This document shows, piece by piece, positions 16,688-29,116 of a stretch of 64,000 nt of DNA. The position numbers were made by a program, and so were the translations under genes. How positions within the stretch are numbered: the stretch's first letter is position 1; each line of letters opens with the position of its first letter. Under the pieces are notes generated by a model. That model had not been told where the DNA came from, ran no database searches, and worked only from the letters and a program-made list of their open reading frames with translations. Source of the stretch: Sphingomonadales bacterium (GTDB taxonomy: Bacteria; Pseudomonadota; Alphaproteobacteria; Sphingomonadales; Sphingomonadaceae); assembly GCA_025351405.1 (NCBI GenBank), contig JANXVZ010000010.1, positions 62,001-126,000 of the forward strand, in the 5' to 3' direction.

Positions 16688-18889
16688 TCAGGCCCTATTG
16701 AGAACAAGTTCGGCAAAGGCTGGTGCGCCGGGGCCGATGGCGGCGCTGTGCTGCGCCACCGCGACACCAAGCCGTGTGCCGCCGCCATCAGCGGTACGCA
16801 TCGCGGCGGTGTACAGAAACACCGGCGCATCCACAGACACGCTGCGCACGATGTGGCCATCGAGCGACACAACGACCTGGTATGACTCGGCAGCCTCCCC
16901 GAGCGCTGCATCAACGAAGTCGGGCCAGCCGAACCCCGCCCTGCTCCGCCGTCGCCATTGCACCCTGATATCGCCGGCCTCCACCCCGAGCCGAAGGTGC
17001 GCGGGCGACAGCGGTCGCAAGGCAGCACCGCCGGCGACCCGGGCGACCGCGACAAAGCCGTCGTCACCGGGGCCGGCGGCACGGAACAAATACGGCCGTC
17101 CCACCGCTTCCAGTGGTGGATCGAACGCCAGCAAGGCCTGGGGGTCCAGCATGAGAAAGGTTTCCCCGCCGCCATGCATTGCAACGGCGACCTCGGTGCC
17201 GCGCCGTCCTCGCAGCAAGGTCGAGAGCCGAAATCGCCCGGGGCCGAGGGCTTCGGCGGTGGCGAACTGGATCAACTCGTCGCCGATGATGGCAAGGTTG
17301 GCCCCGGCGAGCACCGACGCTTCGTCGCGGCTTTCGAGCCACATGCCATCATGGCGCAGATCGACATCGACTGTTGAAAAACGGTCCCATCGATCGGCGG
17401 GGCCATCGGGCAAGATCGTCAGCGCGGAACCATCGACCAGGGTGTTTTCCGCAACGCCGAGTGGCGCGTAGCTCGCGCCACCGTCGCCACTCGCCGATAT
17501 TCCGGCATGGCGCCATGCCGACGAGGCACCGGTGGCCGCGATCCACAACCGCGGCACCGCCGGAAGGTCCCCCGGCAGCGGCGGCAGGTCGAGAACGGTC
17601 AGATGCGTCGGACCGGCAGCACGATTGTCGAAGGCAAGGGCGCGGCCGCCATCTGCGTCGACAAGCGGGGCGACGGCAACCGAGGCCCGCTCCACATCGA
17701 GCTCAACCACCCAGCCGACAAAGCGCGCCTCCCGCACCCGCCAGGTCGTCGCGTCGCCCGAAACCGAAATCAGCGCGCCGGGGCGCAACGGCAAATGGCG
17801 CCATGGCAATCGCAACGTCGCGGTCAACCGCCCTGTTTCGCCCTGCACCAAAAGCTGCGCCGCCAACGTTTTGGCTTGTGCCGGCAACATTGCGGCGGCG
17901 ATATCGTGCTGGTCAATGACTGCGCCCGTTCCGCGCCGCACGCGCTGCAAACCTGGCTGGTAGTCGCGGCTGGCATCATAGAAGCCGACTTCGACGCTAT
18001 CGGCGCGCTGGTCCGCCCCGCTGCGCTTGCGCCGCTCTCCGGCCCGGTCGCTCCCGGTGCCGGACGCATCGCAGTCTCCGGCAGCGACCATTGCAACGGG
18101 GCCGCCGCGACCTCGCAAGGTCAGGCCGCCCTTCGAGTCCATATGCGCGTTGGTAATCGCCACCAAGGGTTCGAGCGCGGTGAAGAGGCTGCCGGCGCGT
18201 CCGGCGAAATAGCCGCTGATTGCGGGGAAATCGCCCGCGACGGCAATCGTGCCCTGCCCCAGGCCGTGCATGGCGGACCCGAAATCAAAGGTGTCGGAGG
18301 CGTCGGCGACGATCTCGAACGTCAAGTTGGGGATGCGGTTGCCGTAATCGGCCAACGGCAGGTCCTCGAACAACGCATAAGCCAGGCCGCGATATGCCGG
18401 CGCGCGGCCGGCGCCTTCTGCCGCGGCGATCAACGGGTCGACCAGCTGCCCTTCGCTGCCTCGCGCCAGCCGCATCGTCACGGGGGATACGAAGCTGCCG
18501 TCGGCGTTGCGGATGAGCTTGCCGTCAGCCCAGATGCGGGCGACGCGGTCAATACATTGGCCGGCAAGCACCACTGCGAACGACGCCGAATAGCTGTAGC
18601 GTGTCGTCGCCCCGCCGCTGCGCTTGCCGCCGCTTCGGCTGCTGCTTTCCTTGATGCCGCTGGTCCAGATGAGGTTGCCGGCGGCGCGCATCCGCCCGGT
18701 GATGACCGGGATCGGTTCACCATAAGCCGAACTTTGCACCGCGAGGTTGCTGATCCGGCCGACTTCGCGTGACGCACCCCCGTTGCCCAGCACGGCGCGA
18801 TCCACGCTGCTGCCAACAAGGCTGCCGATGATGCCGCCTATCGGCCCGCCGACGGCACGGCCGATCCCGCCCAGAATAAGTGTCGCCAT
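16688..18889 (-). CDS. GTA gp15-like tail hub/tip protein, short form
   Basis: 733 residues. N-terminal Gly-rich hydrophobic GGIGRAVGGPIGGIIGSLVGS, then the phage tail-tip core with NLAVQSSAYGEPIPVITGRMRAAGN, LIAAAEG, YALFEDLPLADYGNRIPNLTFEI, and a C-terminal region with STLLRGRRGTE and FRAAGPG, as in gp15 of RcGTA. The RcGTA protein is, as I recall, about 1,300 residues and carries a TIM-barrel-like domain; here the space between the N-terminal segment and the tip core is too short for it. In RcGTA gp15 forms the central tail fibre. The ATG is two bases after the gp14 stop, so the two are co-translated. Confidence 0.85.
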   Translation of the reverse strand: MATLILGGIGRAVGGPIGGIIGSLVGSSVDRAVLGNGGASREVGRISNLAVQSSAYGEPIPVITGRMRAAGNLIWTSGIKESSSRSGGKRSGGATTRYSYSASFAVVLAGQCIDRVARIWADGKLIRNADGSFVSPVTMRLARGSEGQLVDPLIAAAEGAGRAPAYRGLAYALFEDLPLADYGNRIPNLTFEIVADASDTFDFGSAMHGLGQGTIAVAGDFPAISGYFAGRAGSLFTALEPLVAITNAHMDSKGGLTLRGRGGPVAMVAAGDCDASGTGSDRAGERRKRSGADQRADSVEVGFYDASRDYQPGLQRVRRGTGAVIDQHDIAAAMLPAQAKTLAAQLLVQGETGRLTATLRLPWRHLPLRPGALISVSGDATTWRVREARFVGWVVELDVERASVAVAPLVDADGGRALAFDNRAAGPTHLTVLDLPPLPGDLPAVPRLWIAATGASSAWRHAGISASGDGGASYAPLGVAENTLVDGSALTILPDGPADRWDRFSTVDVDLRHDGMWLESRDEASVLAGANLAIIGDELIQFATAEALGPGRFRLSTLLRGRRGTEVAVAMHGGGETFLMLDPQALLAFDPPLEAVGRPYLFRAAGPGDDGFVAVARVAGGAALRPLSPAHLRLGVEAGDIRVQWRRRSRAGFGWPDFVDAALGEAAESYQVVVSLDGHIVRSVSVDAPVFLYTAAMRTADGGGTRLGVAVAQHSAAIGPGAPAFAELVLNRA

Positions 18890-18891
18890 GA

Positions 18892-19323
18892 TCAGCCAAC
18901 TCCCGGAAAGCGCCAGATGGCAATGATGGTCCAGCCGGGATCGATCGGCCCTTCAACGACCCGGCCCAGGCCCGCATGGGCATGGACCACCCCCCGCGAT
19001 GTCACGATGGCGACATGACGTTGGCCCGGAGCGGGTTCCACCACCAGAATGTCGCCGGGCTGCGCCGCCCCCACGCATCGGCAGCCGCACGACGCCAGAA
19101 AGGGGATGAGCAGCCCGGCATTGTCGCCGCCAATGGCATAGGCCGGCACCGCCAGTCCGCCGAGCCCGGCCGCAGCCGCAGCCCACAAGGCAACACCGAT
19201 GCAATCCAGCCCGAGGCCCGGGATCCGTCCCTGGGGCCGAAATCGGGTGCCGACACAATCCCGCACGGCGGCAATGATGGTAGTGACGATCGCGGCGCCA
19301 TCGCGGGCCGATGCTTCGGTCAT
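18892..19323 (-). CDS. GTA gp14-like NlpC/P60 cell-wall peptidase
   Basis: 143 residues. NlpC/P60 cysteine peptidase of the phage-tail type: Cys41 in GLDCIGVAL, His103 in GQRHVAIVT, and a further His in VVHAHAGLGRVVE. It is expected to cut peptidoglycan during DNA delivery and to sit at the tail hub. The start at 19323 has GGAGG eight bases upstream; an upstream extension in the frame overlaps gp13 and is Cys/Arg-rich noise. Length fits RcGTA gp14. Confidence 0.87.
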   Translation of the reverse strand: MTEASARDGAAIVTTIIAAVRDCVGTRFRPQGRIPGLGLDCIGVALWAAAAAGLGGLAVPAYAIGGDNAGLLIPFLASCGCRCVGAAQPGDILVVEPAPGQRHVAIVTSRGVVHAHAGLGRVVEGPIDPGWTIIAIWRFPGVG

Positions 19324-19349
19324 CACGGAAACCTCCGGGAGTTGGGTTC

Positions 19350-20186
19350 TCACGCGCCGGGGAAGCGGGTCAGCAGGTCGCCGCCGGGGACATGGGGCTC
19401 GCCGCGAAAATTCTCGGCATTGGCAAAGCGCCCGATGCAGGTTGCAAAGCGTTTGTCGCAACCGGCCTCGATCTCGACAAGGACACCGGGAACCAGTGCC
19501 AGCGGTTCGTCGAGGGCGAGGCTGGCACCCGTGTGCGCGACGATGCGCCGCTCGATTCCGGCAGCGGCGCCCGTCAGTACCCGCATCCGACCTTCGATAT
19601 GGTCGCCGGCAGAATCGACGCCGGCAATGACAAGGCTATCGCCATCGGCGCTGGTCACCACGCCGCGATGACGGCGGCCCCGCATCGCCACCCGACAGCG
19701 CGCGTCGCCCAGTTCGGCACGACATTCGGGTGAGCAGGTCTCGATGCGCACAGCGGCGAGCGCCGACGTCGGTCCGCGCAGCGTCGCGGTAAAGCCGGCG
19801 TCCGGCCCGGTGCCGGCCTCGACACTTCCCAAGGTGCCGCGCGCCAGCAGCTGCGACCCGGTGTCAGGCTGGCGCCAATCGACCATCACCAGCGACACTT
19901 CGGCGCCATCATAGCGGCCGTCCGCCAGGTCCGCCGCGGTGATAGCATCGGCGCTGAGCGCACCGGCCACGTCCATGGTATCGACATCGAGGCCGTCGCT
20001 GGCGACGATCGCCGATGGGTTCATCCCCGGGGCACTGTCGTATCGCAGCCCGGCAATGACCAAAGGCCGGTCATGGGTGGTGAAACCCAGCGTCACGCCG
20101 TCCCGTCGCGACACCCGCCAGCAGATTGCCAGCATGGTGAGGTCGTTCGTCAGGTCCGGGGCCAGCGCCGCTCCCAATTCCGCCAT
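19350..20186 (-). CDS. GTA gp13-like tail hub protein (DUF2163)
   Basis: 278 residues, DUF2163. Seen: CWRVSRRDGVTLGFTTHDRPL near the N-terminus, DVAGALSADAITAADLADGRYDGAEV, and the C-terminal EAGCDKRFATCIGRFANAENF followed by GEPHVPG. Five cysteines (151, 155, 164, 243, 250) sit in two clusters, consistent with the iron-sulfur site reported for the RcGTA hub, to my knowledge. It follows gp12 by four bases. The ATG at 20186 is used; a longer frame upstream overlaps gp12. Confidence 0.88.
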   Translation of the reverse strand: MAELGAALAPDLTNDLTMLAICWRVSRRDGVTLGFTTHDRPLVIAGLRYDSAPGMNPSAIVASDGLDVDTMDVAGALSADAITAADLADGRYDGAEVSLVMVDWRQPDTGSQLLARGTLGSVEAGTGPDAGFTATLRGPTSALAAVRIETCSPECRAELGDARCRVAMRGRRHRGVVTSADGDSLVIAGVDSAGDHIEGRMRVLTGAAAGIERRIVAHTGASLALDEPLALVPGVLVEIEAGCDKRFATCIGRFANAENFRGEPHVPGGDLLTRFPGA

Positions 20187-20190
20187 GGGC

Positions 20191-22509
20191 CTAATCCTCC
20201 CGCACTTCGACAAGCGGCACCGAGGGCAGTTCCCCCGCCCGCCAGCCGGCGAGCGACACGTCGATGCGATCGGCGGCGAAGCGCACGGGCACGTCGAATT
20301 CAAAGCCTGCACTGACCGCGATCCCGGCAGCGGGCGCCACTTCAAAATCGATCATGCCGCCATCGCCAAGGCTCCAGCCGCTGTTGCGCTCGTTGCCGCC
20401 GACCGCGACGCGCAGGCTGGCGGCGACCGGCCGCGTGATGCGGCGCGTCTGGATGTCGTCGCCGCCGCCATAGTGTTTGACGAGGGCGAAGCGCGTCGCC
20501 AGCCCATCGCCCACCCCAAGCGATTGATCGGTTGCCGCCAACGGCGCTCCGGGTGCCGCCGACGACCGGTCCAGCGGATCGCTGAAGCGAAAGCCATGCG
20601 CCTGGCCACGCCGTGCCCGGAAAAACCCGACGAGCGCGACAAGGTCGGCCTCCGATCGCACGCCGACCCCGGCATCATAGTGCAGGCGCGCGTCACTCCA
20701 CTGGCTGTTGCGCTGCTCGCGCCCGGATCCGGTGACCACCACCTGCGTCGAAAATTCCGGGCCGCCCGCTGCGCCATAGCCGAGCTGAAGCGGAAAGCGC
20801 ACGTCGTGAAAGCCTGCCACGTCTTCCTCCCCGTTGATTTCGAATGCCGTGAAACCGTCGCGCGCGACTTGCGGCCAGGCCCAGACAAATGTTTCCGCGA
20901 CGCCGCGCGCCATCGCTGCGCGGGCGGCATCGACAATGGCCGGCCAATCCGCCGCCGACGCTGCGAAACCGCTGAAATAATGCTGTTTCGCCGCCGGGTA
21001 GCCGAGCCGCTCCGCGATCACGGCGCGCGCCCGTTGCTGGCCGCCGGCATCGCCAGTGGTGACAAATTCATAGTCTTCCAGCTGGAGCACATCGAACGCG
21101 GGTGACGCCCATGCGACCGGCAGGTTGGCGCGAATTAGTTCGGGCGCCTGCGAGTTGAACACCTGTGGGGCGTAGAACAATATATGCGTGACCGTGGCAG
21201 GCGCCGCAGCAAGGACCGCTTCGCGCAGCGCCAGTGTCGCGGCACCAAGCCGGTTGCCGCACCAATCGAGATAGGCGCGTTCCCCGGCGCTGGCGATGCT
21301 GCGAACATCGGCGATGGCGGGCGCCGCGAGGCCGGTGTCCGCCCGATATGCCGCCGTGGTCGCGGCATCATAGAGGCACGCCTGCCCGTCGGCGGCGACC
21401 CACCACCAGGGCTCTCCGATCTGGAAGCGCGGCGCAGGTCCCATCAGCGCCGTGAACGCCAGCGCCGCGCTTTCCAGCCATGCCATCGCCGCCGCGTTGC
21501 AAGGCGACAGCAGCGTGGACGCGGGCACATAGCCGGTCACCGCCCGCTCGCCCGTAGTGCCGCGCTGCGCCCATTCCGCCGGGCAATGCTGGTCGAGCAG
21601 CTCGAACGACAGCGACATGATGGTTGCAAAGCCAAGCGCCGCAGCGCGCGCCAGAAAGTCCGCGTGCCATGCCAGCGCCGGGGCGTTGATCGGCACCACC
21701 GGGTCGGCGAGGAAGGCCCCGCTGGCGGCGTCGCGCCTGAGCCCCATGAAATGGCTCATCCCGACATAGTGGACGAGCGCGTCGCGATAGCCGAGGGCGA
21801 ACAGCGCCTCGACCAGCCGCTCGGGCGTCTGGTTATAGCTGTCGTCATAGCCGCTCGCCATGCGCAGGCGGTGCGGCGGCACAAAGGCATCGCCGGCGCG
21901 CAGCATGGAACCGGGGCCATCGCAGCGAACCGCGCCGATCTGCACCCGCCCGGTAACCGGCGCGGCGAACGCCGCCGCGCTGCCGTCATACGCCGGCGCC
22001 ACCAGCGATATGAACAGCCGGTCGATATCCCTCGCCCACACCGGATCGGACTCGGCAGGGTGCAGAAAGCCACCGGCCAGCGCGTCGAAATCGAGGCTGA
22101 TGACCGCATCATCGGGAACCCCGACGGCATAGTTCCACAGCCGGACATACCAGCTTCGCGGCGCTCCCGATGCGTCGCGCCCTTCGATGGTCAGCACCGG
22201 GCCGTTGACCGCGTCGAGCGGCATGACACCGCTGCCCTGCCAGCGGAACTGCAGTTGCGTGCCGCGATAATCCCGCGATGTCTCCAGCGCGAGCAGCGGA
22301 TGGCTCCAGCGATCGGTCGAGTCCCAGATCAGCCCGGCGAGATCGTCGGCACGGTGGAAGACTGCATCGACGATCATCGCGTCGGCACCGGCCGTTGTCA
22401 CCGCTGCCATCATCGGGCGCGGAAAATCGACTGTCCACCAACGGGGGTCAAAGCGCTTGACCCATTTCGTCCGGCGCTGGTCCGCCGCCGTCGCCAGCCA
22501 ATAGCGCAT
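20191..22509 (-). CDS. GTA gp12-like protein (DUF2460) with a 565-residue N-terminal extension
   Basis: 772 residues, whereas RcGTA gp12 is about 210. Residues 566-772 are the normal DUF2460 tail protein (GFHDVRFPLQLGYGA, FFRARRGQAHGFRFSDP, RRITRPVAASLRVAV). Residues 1-215 look like a beta-sandwich (alternating strands, many Trp/Tyr, WYVRLWNY). Residues 216-560 read like a TIM barrel of the glycosidase type: LGYRDALVHYVGMSHF, LGFATIMSLSFELLD (Glu303), RFQIGEPWWW (Glu366), AFDVLQLEDYEF (Glu478) and AETFVWAWPQ. In RcGTA a TIM-barrel-like domain is on gp15, which is short here. The fold and any activity are inferred from pattern only. Overlaps the gp11 stop by one base. Confidence 0.8.
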   Translation of the reverse strand: MRYWLATAADQRRTKWVKRFDPRWWTVDFPRPMMAAVTTAGADAMIVDAVFHRADDLAGLIWDSTDRWSHPLLALETSRDYRGTQLQFRWQGSGVMPLDAVNGPVLTIEGRDASGAPRSWYVRLWNYAVGVPDDAVISLDFDALAGGFLHPAESDPVWARDIDRLFISLVAPAYDGSAAAFAAPVTGRVQIGAVRCDGPGSMLRAGDAFVPPHRLRMASGYDDSYNQTPERLVEALFALGYRDALVHYVGMSHFMGLRRDAASGAFLADPVVPINAPALAWHADFLARAAALGFATIMSLSFELLDQHCPAEWAQRGTTGERAVTGYVPASTLLSPCNAAAMAWLESAALAFTALMGPAPRFQIGEPWWWVAADGQACLYDAATTAAYRADTGLAAPAIADVRSIASAGERAYLDWCGNRLGAATLALREAVLAAAPATVTHILFYAPQVFNSQAPELIRANLPVAWASPAFDVLQLEDYEFVTTGDAGGQQRARAVIAERLGYPAAKQHYFSGFAASAADWPAIVDAARAAMARGVAETFVWAWPQVARDGFTAFEINGEEDVAGFHDVRFPLQLGYGAAGGPEFSTQVVVTGSGREQRNSQWSDARLHYDAGVGVRSEADLVALVGFFRARRGQAHGFRFSDPLDRSSAAPGAPLAATDQSLGVGDGLATRFALVKHYGGGDDIQTRRITRPVAASLRVAVGGNERNSGWSLGDGGMIDFEVAPAAGIAVSAGFEFDVPVRFAADRIDVSLAGWRAGELPSVPLVEVRED

Positions 22510-25018: not shown

Positions 25019-25546
25019 TCAGTTAAGCCGCATCCGCCGCCACGGTCGCCACAGCGCCGCCACCGCGGTGGGCGGCGGCCCGGCATCGGCGGCATCGCGA
25101 TGTGAAAACAGGTGTGCCGCCAATCGCACCAGGCCCTGGCGCAACGGTTCGGGTACGCCGTTCCAATCCGCCCCCAGCCCGGCGCGAAACGCGACCACCG
25201 GTTGCACGACGTCGAAGGGTGCCAGCAAGCGCACCCAGCCACAGCCCGAAACGTCGATGTCGGTTTCGAAACCATCGCCCGCCACCGCGCCGCCGGCGCC
25301 GGCTACCGCGGTTATCGCCACGACGGGCAACACCCCGATCCGCTGCCAGTCCGGGCTCGCGGCGATCCGCTGGCGGCCATCACGAACGATCAACCATTGG
25401 CCGGTGAACGCCTCGCACAAGGCTATCGCCGTGCGGATGAACCCCGCCAGCAAGGCATCCTCGTCGTCGCGTTCGAGCCGCAGGAACGCCTTCACCTCGG
25501 CAAGGCTGACTGCTGCTTCGGGGCTTGGCATCGTTTCCGGCATCAT
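25019..25546 (-). CDS. GTA gp6-like head-tail connector
   Basis: 175 residues. Seen: the gp6 opening VSLAEVKAFLRLERDDEDALLAGFIRTAI, CEAFTGQWLIVRDG, and an all-helical end with VPEPLRQGLVRLAAHLFSHRD, matching the phage gp6-like connector family. It docks on the portal as the first ring of the neck. Start ATG at 25546 overlaps the stop of the preceding adaptor gene; an ATG one codon later is equally possible. Confidence 0.87.
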   Translation of the reverse strand: MMPETMPSPEAAVSLAEVKAFLRLERDDEDALLAGFIRTAIALCEAFTGQWLIVRDGRQRIAASPDWQRIGVLPVVAITAVAGAGGAVAGDGFETDIDVSGCGWVRLLAPFDVVQPVVAFRAGLGADWNGVPEPLRQGLVRLAAHLFSHRDAADAGPPPTAVAALWRPWRRMRLN

Positions 25547-25815
25547 CGGTCCTCCACCCGGATAACCAACGTCCGTTCATCGCTGCGGCCATCGGACATG
25601 GTGATCGCGTTGACAACGCGATAGACAGTGCCGGCAACGCCTGCCGCCAGCGTCACCATGGTACGTTGTGCATCGATGACGGCGCCCGAAACGGCAAGTC
25701 CGTCCGGGGTCACCCGCCATTGCGACGACATGATCGCCAGGCTGCCGAGATAGCCGCCGGCCCAATCGACGGCATAGTCGACCACCGCGGCCGGATCCTT
25801 GAGGAAAATCGCCAA
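25543..25815 (-). CDS. Phage fibre-tail adaptor-like Ig-fold protein
   Basis: 90 residues. The pattern LKDPAAVVDYAVDW, then SSQWRVTPDGLAVSGAVID, TMVTLAAGVAGTVYRVVNAIT and GRSDERTLVIRVED matches small Ig-like phage proteins annotated as fibre-tail adaptors. It likely joins the spike product of this cassette to the particle. It is co-translated with gp6 (four-base overlap). RcGTA has no counterpart at this position. Confidence 0.72.
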   Translation of the reverse strand: MAIFLKDPAAVVDYAVDWAGGYLGSLAIMSSQWRVTPDGLAVSGAVIDAQRTMVTLAAGVAGTVYRVVNAITMSDGRSDERTLVIRVEDR

Positions 25816-25885
25816 TGCCTGCCCCTTAGGTTATGGGCGCACTCCGCCGGAGTGCACCCGAACGCGTGGAAAAACCGGCGGCAAA

Positions 25886-26254
25886 TCAGACCGGGGCGCC
25901 GACTTCGACGCTCCAGCTGGCAATGCTGACGGTGCCGCCAAGGGCCAGCGCCTGCGCCGGACAGGTGGTGACATAAAGCAGCCGGCTGGTGGTGCCATCG
26001 AGTAGCGCGACATGATCGGCCGTGCCGGCGGCGACCACCGACAGTCCGGATTTCGCGGCAATGGTCACCTTGCGCCCGGAAATGTCACCGATGCCGATGG
26101 CAAAATCGGCGGTCACCAGCGCGCCTTCGGCAAGGCGGCCGCTATCGGCCTGGGCATAGGTCGTCGGTTGTCCGCTGACCGCGACCATCCGCGTTGCGGC
26201 GCGGACGATGTTGAGGCTGCCGTCAAGGACGTCGGTGCTGGCAAATTTCGACAT
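25886..26254 (-). CDS. Phage-type structural protein of unknown role
   Basis: 122 residues. The motif set VLDGSLNIVRAATRMVAVSGQPTTYAQA, FAIGIGDISGRKVTIAA, ADHVALLDGTTSRLLYVTTC and ALALGGTVSIASWSVEV is found in small beta-rich proteins next to fibre genes in phage head-tail regions. Function is not established; a decoration or fibre-base role is inference. It lies 27 bases downstream of the spike gene and 70 bases upstream of the adaptor gene. Confidence 0.68.
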   Translation of the reverse strand: MSKFASTDVLDGSLNIVRAATRMVAVSGQPTTYAQADSGRLAEGALVTADFAIGIGDISGRKVTIAAKSGLSVVAAGTADHVALLDGTTSRLLYVTTCPAQALALGGTVSIASWSVEVGAPV

Positions 26255-26281
26255 GGTTGGTCTCCCTTCGAGATGAAATCG

Positions 26282-29116
26282 TCAGTTCAAGGTGATGGTG
26301 ATGGTGCGGAGATCGGCCGGGATGTGCAGCGTCGGCACCACTGCCGCGCCGCTGCCCGGAAACAGCAGCAACACGGCATCGACGATGGCGTGCACCGCGC
26401 CGGAGGGTGCAAGGCCGATGCCGGGCGGCGTGAAAGTCAGCACGGTTGCAAGGCCGCTGTGTGCGCTGCGTCCGCCCAGCGGCGCCAACGCCCCGGTCCA
26501 GCCGACCCCTGGGGTACGAGCCGCCTGCACGGATCGCGCTGCCGCAGGCACGAGCGCCCCAGCCCAGCCCAGCAGCGTCAGCGCCGCACGCTGGCCAGTG
26601 CGCGCAGGGGTCGGCACCAATGCCCCGGCCCAGCCCAGGGCGGTCACTTGCACTGCCTGCCCGGATCGCGTCGAAACGGGAGCCAGGGCGCCGACCCAGC
26701 CCAGCAGCGTCACCGCCGCGCGCGTCGCCACGGCGTTGCTGGCCGGGGCCAGGCTGACCAGCCCGGCCGACCCGGGCACCTCGACACCGCCGGTGGTAAA
26801 CGGCACGCCGCGCGCCGTCCCCAGCCGGTCCTTGTCCATCGAACTGCGGATGCCGCGCGCCGACAGGACCCCGCCCAATGGCGGCTGGTAGTTGCCGCCG
26901 CCGGTCGGCGTCGCGCTGTAGCTGCTGCGATCATCGACATAGCCCGGCAATCCCGGCGCCACCCGTGCCGATCGCCGCCCCATGTATTCATGGCGGAAAT
27001 TGCCCGATGCAGCATCGACATGGCGGCCGAAATCGTAATTGCCCTCCCAGCCGACGCCGTACAAAATCCCCCAGGTCTCGACCATCTGCGGCCGATAACC
27101 CGTTGCCGGGCTGACGCCGTTGGCTGCGCGGATCGATTGCGTCGTCGGTTCGGACACATCGTCGTGCTTGGTCGTCACCCAGTCGAAGCTGTTGTTCGCC
27201 ACGCGGTTGACAAAGGCATGGGTGACCTGGCTGTCGCACTCCGCCAGCGTCGTCGGCGTCGGTCTCCCGTACATCAGCGTGCAGCGTTCGCCGACAAAGC
27301 TGTTGCCTTCGATGATGTTGTAGCTTTGCGTCTGGACGGTCACCTCGCCCATCGCCATTTGTGGCTGGCCCTGGGCACCGATGGTTTCACAGACATTGCC
27401 GATGATCGCGGCGCGCCGATAGCTTTCGCCCACCGTCCCGGCGGCCACCTGCGGCACCGGCTGGATCTGGATGACGCGATTGTTGCACGATCTGAGATCG
27501 TTATAGGCGACCATCCAGTCCTCACCGGACGCTGCGGTGGTCAGCCCGCTCCACGATGACACGCCATCCTCGATGCCGGTCATCGTCGTGTCTTCGGTGG
27601 CGGGAATGCGGCGGTGCCTGGCAATGCACAGCGCCTCGGCCTTGCGGCTGCCTTCGCAGGCCCGCAACAGCCCGTGGCGCATCGATGCTCCCGCCAGCCG
27701 CGATCCGGTCTTCCACCATTTCGTCCGCGTTGCGGTCATGTTGAACTGGCTGGCCGGAACCGTGCCGCCGAACGGCGCGACGGTATTGGTGGTCTGTCCG
27801 GATTTGCCGCGCACCTCGATATTGTCGAGGTGCCAGTACAGCGCGCTGCTGATGAGCGTGGTGGTGCCGGTTTCCAGCACGAGGTTGCGCAAGGCATAGC
27901 GCGTTACCCGCCCGGTCGGCGGTGTTGCCGTTTGCAGGATGCAGTTGCTGCGCGGGCTGGCGTCATCCGGATCGCCCTCGATGACCAGCGGAATTTCAAG
28001 GCTGGTGACACCGCTGGTCACTGCCGTCGCGCCAACCCCTGCATGCGTCCCCACCGCCAGCCGGATGCGGGCTCCATCGACAGCCCGCGTCTGCGCTGCC
28101 TGGCCATTGGCCGCCGCCAGCGTCTTGTTGGCGAGGTACAGTGCCTGGATGGCGGTGGTGATGTTCGCCGGCCGCGATGCCGGCGCCAGCCCCTTGGCGG
28201 CGGCGTGGCTGGCCTGGACCATGGCGGCGTTCGCCGTGACCGTCCCGGCCGGATCGACATAGAGAAAGCGTTCCGAATAGCGCGTTCCCGCCGGGTCATA
28301 CCCGACGACAAACGGCGATTGCGCGCCGTCGCCATAACCCGCCGTGCCAAGCCCGGTCATTGACCGCGTGCCCGCCGCATCGGTCGATCGCATCGCCCCC
28401 AGCCAGGGGTAAACCTCGGCATCGCAGCGCAACAGCCCGGCGGTCAGCGCCGTGGCCATCGCCGGCGTCACATCGACATAATAGCAGCGCAGGGCGTCGC
28501 CATAGCTGTTGTCGGTGCCGAGCGCGGTGGTCCAGTAGGTCTTGACCGTCGTGCCGTCGGTGACACTGAACCTGACGCCGGCGACCGGTGCCAGGCCGAC
28601 AGGATGGTGCGACGCGACGAGCAAGGACAATCGGAAATTGCCGCCCTGCACCTGATAGACGGCATCGGCCCAGCGCATGATCGGCAGCGGTGCGACGCGG
28701 GTGGATGCGTTGGTGACGGCGATCGCCGATGCGGCGCTTTCGCCCGTTCGCCAGCCCGCCGCCACCGCCAACGCCAGCGCACTGTCCGTGGCGTACACCC
28801 ATTCCGCCAGCGCCAGCCGGCAGGTTATGGTGCCGTTGCCATTGTCGGTTTCGTCGATCGTGGCGGGCAGGATGGTGCCACTTGCATCCCATGACACCGG
28901 CTTGCGCAATGGCTTGGTGGCAACGAAACTGCGCGCAAGCGGCGCACTGACCGCCTGGCCCCCCGATGGCGCGTAGCCGGCATGGCTCGTCGTCAGCGTC
29001 ACCCGCGGCGTGCCATCGGGGTCGAGCGTGTAGGCGGCGAAGCTGCCGGGGCTGCCGCTGACCACCAGCCGCAACACCCAGCCGTTCGCCTCCACCATCG
29101 CCGAGATTATCGACAT
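26282..29116 (-). CDS. Large beta-helix tail-spike-like protein
   Basis: 944 residues. Residues 1-300 are beta-rich head/neck-like modules. About residues 310-720 have the short-turn pattern of a right-handed parallel beta-helix (YALRNLVLETGTTTL, YWHLDNIEVRG, RAAIIGNVCETIG, SYNIIEGNSFVG, FVNRVANNSFDW), the fold of receptor-degrading or receptor-binding phage spikes. Residues 799-886 are four 22-residue repeats, and the last 58 residues form a beta-rich end. There is no signal peptide. It sits between the capsid gene and the neck genes, an unusual site for a spike. Enzyme activity cannot be judged; no clear catalytic triad was picked out. Confidence 0.78.
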   Translation of the reverse strand: MSIISAMVEANGWVLRLVVSGSPGSFAAYTLDPDGTPRVTLTTSHAGYAPSGGQAVSAPLARSFVATKPLRKPVSWDASGTILPATIDETDNGNGTITCRLALAEWVYATDSALALAVAAGWRTGESAASAIAVTNASTRVAPLPIMRWADAVYQVQGGNFRLSLLVASHHPVGLAPVAGVRFSVTDGTTVKTYWTTALGTDNSYGDALRCYYVDVTPAMATALTAGLLRCDAEVYPWLGAMRSTDAAGTRSMTGLGTAGYGDGAQSPFVVGYDPAGTRYSERFLYVDPAGTVTANAAMVQASHAAAKGLAPASRPANITTAIQALYLANKTLAAANGQAAQTRAVDGARIRLAVGTHAGVGATAVTSGVTSLEIPLVIEGDPDDASPRSNCILQTATPPTGRVTRYALRNLVLETGTTTLISSALYWHLDNIEVRGKSGQTTNTVAPFGGTVPASQFNMTATRTKWWKTGSRLAGASMRHGLLRACEGSRKAEALCIARHRRIPATEDTTMTGIEDGVSSWSGLTTAASGEDWMVAYNDLRSCNNRVIQIQPVPQVAAGTVGESYRRAAIIGNVCETIGAQGQPQMAMGEVTVQTQSYNIIEGNSFVGERCTLMYGRPTPTTLAECDSQVTHAFVNRVANNSFDWVTTKHDDVSEPTTQSIRAANGVSPATGYRPQMVETWGILYGVGWEGNYDFGRHVDAASGNFRHEYMGRRSARVAPGLPGYVDDRSSYSATPTGGGNYQPPLGGVLSARGIRSSMDKDRLGTARGVPFTTGGVEVPGSAGLVSLAPASNAVATRAAVTLLGWVGALAPVSTRSGQAVQVTALGWAGALVPTPARTGQRAALTLLGWAGALVPAAARSVQAARTPGVGWTGALAPLGGRSAHSGLATVLTFTPPGIGLAPSGAVHAIVDAVLLLFPGSGAAVVPTLHIPADLRTITITLN
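26459..26722 (-). repeat. Four tandem 66-bp (22-residue) repeats in the spike gene
   Basis: Four consecutive 22-residue units, each with the core LLGW-x-GALVP or near variant (LGWVGALAP, LGWAGALVP, LGWAGALVP, VGWTGALAP) and a basic end such as TRSGQ, ARTGQ, ARSVQ or GRSAH. They are in frame, have no gaps, and cover residues 799-886. Confidence 0.92.

Follow-up and report, generated by a model that had tools for sequence, protein, structure and literature searches.

A gene transfer agent gp12 from Sphingomonadales with a phage sheath-type module and a conserved internal start that may yield two distal tail proteins

In the gene transfer agent (GTA) RcGTA, a single hexamer of the distal tail protein Dit (gp12) meets trimers of the hub and the megatron (gp15), and odd and even Dit subunits contact different baseplate proteins, with Dit Ala2 among the contacts (PMC7296036; this and the other papers cited are drawn on in excerpt). 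The Dit of RcGTA is plain, and a TIM barrel of family PF13547 resides instead in the gp15 trimer, its function being stated as unknown (PMC13420450). A second point of reference is phage N4, whose tail sheath is a six-fold assembly of gp64:gp65 heterodimers in which gp65 is the receptor-binding protein (PMC12633501). Here, we describe a GTA locus that shares features with both, found in a 64,000-nucleotide stretch (the window) of a Sphingomonadales bacterium (assembly GCA_025351405.1, contig JANXVZ010000010.1, positions 62,001 to 126,000). As in RcGTA, the cluster encodes a Dit of the same family and places a TIM barrel at the tail tip, but the barrel is of another family and lies on gp12.

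Open reading frames (ORFs) and a Pfam scan reveal, on the minus strand of the window, a head-tail cluster of RcGTA type with genes for terminase, portal, DUF6127, an S78 protease, capsid, connector, gp8, gp9, gp10, the tail assembly chaperone (TAC), gp11 to gp15 and a DUF2793 protein; by gene content, this conserved cluster identifies an RcGTA-type GTA. Our preferred reading, to which we assign a probability of about 70%, is that gp12 is a two-in-one gene for both a long Dit with the sheath module and a short, plain one, which would form a mixed ring at the tail tip. In comparing loci, we distinguish three layouts: A, with the NCTSP (non-contractile tail sheath protein) module on Dit, a plain hub and a short gp15; B, with the module on the hub, a plain Dit and a short gp15; and C, with a plain Dit, a plain hub and a gp15 carrying GTA_TIM. 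The features of gp12 in the window are as follows.

20191..22509, minus strand: gp12 long product, NCTSP_N plus NCTSP TIM barrel plus Dit, 772 residues (ORF, Pfam, AlphaFold2 model)
21892..22461, minus strand: NCTSP_N beta-sandwich, residues 17-206, PF23844 (Pfam E-value 3.4e-91)
20851..21879, minus strand: TIM-barrel_NCTSP, residues 211-553, PF23845 (Pfam E-value 9.9e-136, AlphaFold2 model), with invariant E303, E366 and E478 at strand ends
20200..20808, minus strand: Dit (DUF2460), residues 568-770, PF09343, homologue of RcGTA Rcc01695 (Pfam E-value 5.2e-78)
20824..20832, minus strand: ribosome-binding-like sequence GGGGAGGAA upstream of the internal start (Shine-Dalgarno scoring)
20818..20820, minus strand: conserved internal start codon GTG, codon 564 (codon alignment)
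20191..20820, minus strand: putative short product, a plain Dit of 209 residues, predicted from the internal start

The gp12 ORF begins with ATG and encodes 772 residues, as an initial annotation of this DNA had read, and the domain limits proposed there (1-215, 216-560 and 566-772) lie close to those of Pfam. NCTSP_N and TIM-barrel_NCTSP match over their full-length profiles with 304 and 453 bits (cut-off 27), while the C-terminal domain belongs to the Dit family by PF09343 (262 bits), TIGR02217 (233 bits against 136.65) and the chain 6tba_6B (E-value 3e-55). The structure prediction that the annotation had proposed as a check yielded an AlphaFold2 model (47-row alignment, mean per-residue confidence (pLDDT) 89.8, predicted template-modelling score (pTM) 0.80) with a beta-rich N domain followed by strands and helices alternating at 215-543, in agreement with PF23845 and with the TIM-barrel-like part suspected at the outset. 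The glutamates of the three motifs then singled out, SFELL (E303), IGEPWWW (E366) and LQLEDY (E478), prove invariant in 47/47 rows and are located at barrel strand ends in the model. Predicted fold and residue conservation fit the pattern of a glycoside hydrolase, a TIM barrel with two strand-end carboxylates, and the conserved carboxylates suggest an enzyme that would bind or cut a surface sugar. A chance reading frame is ruled out as the origin of the NCTSP module by the presence of PF23845 in 97/149 genomes of the same family.

Among solved structures, N4 gp64 and gp65 come closest to the barrel, both in sequence and in fold. N4 gp64 is both the top fold match and the best PDB sequence match; in the fold comparison, N4 chains hold ranks 1-4 and 6 and an R4C Dit rank 5, followed by glycosidases such as GH31, PgaB, beta-amylase and GH66. 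The NCTSP domain itself is not new, the module being covered by the Pfam families PF23844 and PF23845, and PHROG 6040 covers the module plus a part that also matches gp13. Of the 50,697 records in a phage collection, 322 match the 560-residue extension, each at less than 60% identity, and NCTSP proteins are variously annotated by phage record as capsid and scaffold, lateral tail fibre, baseplate protein with EPS (exopolysaccharide) depolymerase activity, non-contractile tail sheath, or hypothetical. We aligned eight relatives (N4 gp65, N4 gp64, Loki, Lebethron, phi92, rV5, Goslar and the prophage-like G279 protein); N4 gp65 stops short of the carboxylate columns, and E303, E366, W368-W370, P448, N462, E478, Y480 and W543 are identical in the 7/7 phage or prophage proteins that cover them. 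N4 gp65:gp64 has a homologous NCTSP_N and TIM barrel, with the same carboxylates in gp64, and differs from GTA gp12 in that its sheath is six-fold around the tail (PMC12633501) and its barrel is split over two genes, gp65 holding the first part and gp64 the rest, collinear with the one-chain GTA gp12 barrel (locus L326, 1523-6957). A search for a Dit domain in N4 gp65 and gp64 found none in either.

We know of no enzyme activity of N4 gp64, and it is possible, although not the outcome we favour, that the TIM barrel is a dead enzyme that serves only as a binding or structural skirt. The description of N4 gp65 as a sheath and receptor-binding protein (PMC12633501) is in line with such a role, whereas the retention of E303, E366 and E478 from GTAs to N4, phi92 and Goslar, and the position of these residues at barrel strand ends in the predicted structure, weigh against it.

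The most interesting new point, absent from the initial annotation, is the conserved internal start, which we followed in 255 ORFs with a near-complete Dit, representing 231 distinct layout-A genes. Codon 564, a valine codon in the window, is nearly always ATG or GTG in the 47 rows of the alignment, and among the distinct genes it is ATG in 118, GTG in 97 and TTG in 8 (223/231), the remaining 8 having ATG, GTG or TTG at codon 565. Where the residue is valine, GTG is used in 97/97 genes, compared to 55.8% of the valine codons of these genes overall. On the tree, codon 564 requires 50 changes of state, always within start codons or by a one-codon shift, whereas the control valine columns 122, 740, 742 and 570 also drift to GTC, GTT, GTA or isoleucine codons. 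The adjoining codons vary and the linker from W543 to F567 ranges from 21 to 31 residues, while the start keeps its place, which is where a stand-alone Dit begins (a start codon lies within 5 codons in 77/77 scored stand-alone Dits).

This codon is preceded by a ribosome-binding-like site, which in the window reads GGGGAGGAAGAC GTG. A Shine-Dalgarno (SD) 4-mer occurs at -16 to -5 in 230/231 genes (mean over other positions, 11.5%) and a 5-mer SD core in 178/231 (mean, 2.7%), with a mean anti-SD energy of -8.9 at the internal start and -3.3 elsewhere (standard deviation 1.4); among 752 positions, mean anti-SD pairing is strongest at 564-566, which have this site in common. A conserved start codon and a ribosome-binding-like site thus coincide at the domain boundary, as expected of a gene with two products, and the predicted short Dit would have 209 residues, against 210 in the RcGTA gp12 chain. 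Type III secretion SctQ genes (Spa33, HrcQ) are structural genes in which an internal in-frame start gives two products; the proteins are unrelated to gp12, and the likeness is one of analogy only. The NCTSP::hub junctions of layout B served as a control: 8 of 11 rows lack a start codon and the other 3 have one with weak pairing (-2.6 or -2.9), L123 and L162 among the 11 being one gene.

These data bear on two other ways to read the gene. Were only the fused 772-residue protein made, all six Dits would carry a six-fold skirt, with the internal start as a relic or silent. The N4 sheath offers a six-fold precedent (PMC12633501) and the long start in the window has a good ribosome site (-8.1), but a start codon that was no more than a silent relic would be unlikely to persist across 50 changes while the linker around it varies, and the parallel gp13 fusions have no such site, which makes this reading unlikely. 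Less unlikely, though still doubtful, is that most of the Dit is the short form, the long form being a separate, minor sheath or adhesin for which the Dit domain is only an anchor. Median pairing is -9.3 at the internal start (n=231) and -6.5 at the long start (best start near residue 1, 155/231 scorable), as one would expect if the short form prevailed; this is a question of ratio, not another anatomy, and, layout B aside, barrel and Dit share one ORF in 263/264 loci showing both (the exception being L005), so the long form evidently matters. Separately, we note that the gp12 domains lie in separate pieces or frames in L005 and in G007, G017, G042, G044, G093, G132 and G140, which are perhaps decaying GTAs or assembly errors.

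The two-product reading of gp12 could work as follows. Initiation at the first start would give a Dit with a phage-type non-contractile-sheath module at its N-terminus, while initiation at codon 564, with its own ribosome-binding-like site, would give the plain Dit. Long and short forms would then assemble into one six-membered ring in which only some subunits carry the module beside the baseplate. A single Dit ring could carry at most six copies; three of six, or a 3:3 ratio, is the natural guess, as it would match the three-fold hub and gp15. Each subunit of a trimeric hub or megatron can bear the module, whereas a hexameric Dit would need a module-free product to present three copies, and this is the simplest reason we can offer for an internal start in layout A and none in layout B. 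Placed on the Dit N-terminus, the module would sit close to the site where gp15 lacks its peripheral domain and would substitute for the peripheral TIM barrel found in the gp15 insert of other GTAs, most likely binding, and perhaps cutting, a recipient surface sugar en route to the outer membrane.

The counterpart of the long gp12 is a short gp15, for which the window shows the following.

16688..18889, minus strand: gp15, short megatron, 733 residues, without the peripheral TIM domain PF13547 (ORF, Pfam)
18296..18304, minus strand: empty gp15 slot near residues 196-198, where other lineages have an insert of 320-729 residues

The annotated length of 733 residues agrees with the ORF. Against the GTA megatron model NF048004, the window gp15 scores 445 bits, below the equivalog cut-off of 800, with homology on both sides of the slot, and its match to the RcGTA megatron is confined to the two flanks of a single gap. 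A profile of 69 short gp15s matches megatrons in two parts, of which the left one mostly stops at 192-202 and the right one begins at 194-216; in some viral megatrons, the left part extends to about 240-250. gp15 is short because this slot near residue 196, the home of the RcGTA peripheral domain, is empty. The insert that fills it in megatrons corresponds to the RcGTA peripheral domain, residues 230-744 (PMC7296036), and PF13547 covers residues 445-739 of the RcGTA gp15 chain. Where it could be measured (57/80 viral loci), the insert has a median length of 557 residues, and the gp12 extension has about 560.

From such lengths, the initial annotation had suggested a shuffling of the module, in this lineage, out of gp15 and into gp12. 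Its figures hold up: the RcGTA lengths it gave agree with the deposited chains (1304 residues for gp15, 210 for gp12), and the sums are nearly equal, 772+733 = 1505 here and 210+1304 = 1514 in RcGTA. The TIM barrel of gp12 with its glycosidase-like sites, the gp15 without a TIM domain and their co-occurrence in the loci examined also stand, the sizes of insert and extension match, and the gp15 TIM insert and the NCTSP module are never found together in our samples. The shuffling itself finds no support, as the barrel is of another family. In the suggested check against PF13547, gp12 has no Pfam match, and hhalign gives 0.75% against the gp15 barrel, compared to 100% each for the same gp12 profile against N4 gp64, phi92, rV5, Goslar and Loki (5/5), our positive control. 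The two barrels fall in separate Pfam families, PF23845 and PF13547, and their fold neighbours differ: among the 50 matches listed for each, the gp12 model finds N4 gp64, PgaB and beta-amylase and no megatron, while a model of the gp15 insert (pLDDT 78.6) finds the R4C megatron, GH113 and GH53 and no N4 chain. The gp12 module also has its own beta-sandwich and phage relatives. On the strength of profile comparison with its positive control, Pfam, fold neighbours and tree, we reject a literal transfer from gp15 to gp12; excision of the module from gp15 and its move to gp12 in this lineage is exceedingly improbable. Because the barrels belong to different families, their equal sizes are a coincidence, or at most a sign of equal tail-tip room; the gp12 module is replacement or alternative equipment.

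Across 306 scorable loci, the state of the slot follows the presence of the module. The slot is empty in 182/182 loci of layout A and 9/9 of layout B, or 191/191 with NCTSP on gp12 or gp13, and it is filled in 100/100 of layout C (499-729 residues) and in 14/15 loci with neither barrel (320-418 residues), or 114/115 without NCTSP. This sample is not random, as loci were fetched with NCTSP or GTA_TIM queries together with 20 stretches that have Dit but neither barrel, of which 15 were scored (L407, L409, L414, L415 and L419 remaining unscored); distinct gp15 cores number 170, 9, 99 and 15, in the same order. The inserts of the last group (L408, L410-L413, L416-L418, L420, L421 and L423-L426) are of a third kind in the same slot, with no Pfam match in the five gp15s scanned, and by eye their sequences look beta-rich. 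A survey independent of these features covered 337 genomes of the class: PF23845 occurs in 5, PF13547 in 36 and both in 0, and among the 54 with DUF2460, 31 have PF13547, 5 have PF23845 and 18 have neither. In the 149 genomes of the family, DUF2460 is present in 102 and PF13547 in 1, below its cut-off.

Layout B is represented among alphaproteobacterial prophage-like loci (L162, L163 and L332-L339), which share with the window the module, the gene neighbourhood and a short gp15, with the slot empty in the 9 scored, and differ in having the module on gp13, Dit as a separate gene where seen and no strong junction start. A gp15 tree was built from 74 chosen rows, of which 21 have an odd letter composition, and excludes the diverged L422; it requires 4 changes of layout and just 2 of NCTSP presence. 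Layout A lies on one side of a branch (SH-aLRT, the Shimodaira-Hasegawa-like approximate likelihood ratio test, 93) and C of another (100), whereas B and the loci with neither barrel do not form single groups, L162 standing beside three module-less rows (85). In the NCTSP tree, layout A is one group (84/85), and B (100/99) adjoins N4, Loki and Lebethron.

Among the best 80 of 332 gp12 relatives, most bear Sphingomonadales names or come from genera that we presume to belong there; two are Emcibacter-named metagenome-assembled genomes (MAGs) and some are unplaced MAGs of Alphaproteobacteria, Proteobacteria or Pseudomonadota. Because the host tree is rooted with Emcibacterales and Sphingomonadales in excerpts of PMC10883770, layout A may be as old as layout C. 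Rooting the layouts with the tail proteins of Loki and Lebethron gave hhalign values of at most 9% for Dit or hub, which are unusable, while gp15 matched only the Lebethron tail fibre, and that in part (74.6% over 80 columns), so that the layouts may have changed in either direction.

Several observations weigh against the reading of gp12 as a two-product gene whose module replaces the gp15 barrel. The slot rule is near-exact, yet the loci are related and the independent events few, and L422, which lacks the module, has a nearly empty slot (43 residues) with a weak match. Six copies on Dit are conceivable given the six-fold N4 sheath (PMC12633501), and D479, next to one of the conserved carboxylates, is replaced by cysteine in phi92, rV5 and Goslar. 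Synonymous shuffling gives a pairing energy of -6.7, compared to the observed -8.9 (median per-gene p 0.38), so the acidic linker encodes part of the ribosome-site signal, and the view of this site as a mere by-product of that linker is partly true. SD 4-mers are also frequent elsewhere in the gene, at 0.93 at codons 112-114 and 0.86 at codons 66-67, although no conserved start codon is found there, and the RNA around the internal start is not unusually open (z 1.3). Because the acidic linker supplies part of the SD signal and other sites are SD-rich, we rely on the start-codon column more than on the SD site.

The genes next to gp12 and gp15 in the window are listed below.

19350..20345, minus strand: gp13 hub ORF, PF09931 plus PF09356 (ORF, Pfam)
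18892..19461, minus strand: gp14, tail peptidase-like, with a weak NlpC/P60 family match below cut-off

The true start of gp13 is probably close to the gp12 stop. Elsewhere, in the gp13-like ORFs of L410, L411, L412, L418 and L426, an additional segment separates the two hub domains, and an ORF of L414 (10964-12985, minus strand) runs from the first part of a hub into the last portion of gp15, as though a deletion had fused the two in a decaying cluster. In L101, L106, L080, L093 and L110, from Emcibacter-named and unplaced MAGs, the gap from the gp13 ORF to that of gp14 is about 560-750 bp, large enough for another gene. The window contains, at 25543-29116 (minus strand) between capsid and head-tail connector, a 944-residue ORF with no Pfam match over cut-off, a 122-residue ORF and a Gp77-like fibre-tail adaptor (PF23148); these genes, which we take to lie outside the RcGTA gene order, are possibly a fibre or adhesin unit.

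Among the matches listed in a search of the open-access literature, titles and the abstracts shown mention no extended gp12, no NCTSP in GTAs and no GTA internal start, though an earlier description is possible, and excerpts of PMC8601537, PMC12892993 and PMC12185513 contain nothing against our reading. We see an even chance, judging from the gene sequences, that Sphingomonadales and Emcibacter-type GTAs build a mixed distal-tail ring from one gene through an internal start, with the module on part, probably half, of the ring. If so, these tail tips would present one host-surface module in three copies, carried by Dit, hub or megatron, and the gp15 slot would be empty whenever another carrier is used. 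The short gp15 and the long gp12 would be explained together, under a rule by which either the gp15 slot is filled or the module is on gp12 or gp13, not both, and a mixed ring made through an internal start would be a way to fit a three-fold part on a six-fold tail. A large group of GTAs would thereby gain a tail-tip enzyme candidate that RcGTA-based models have missed.

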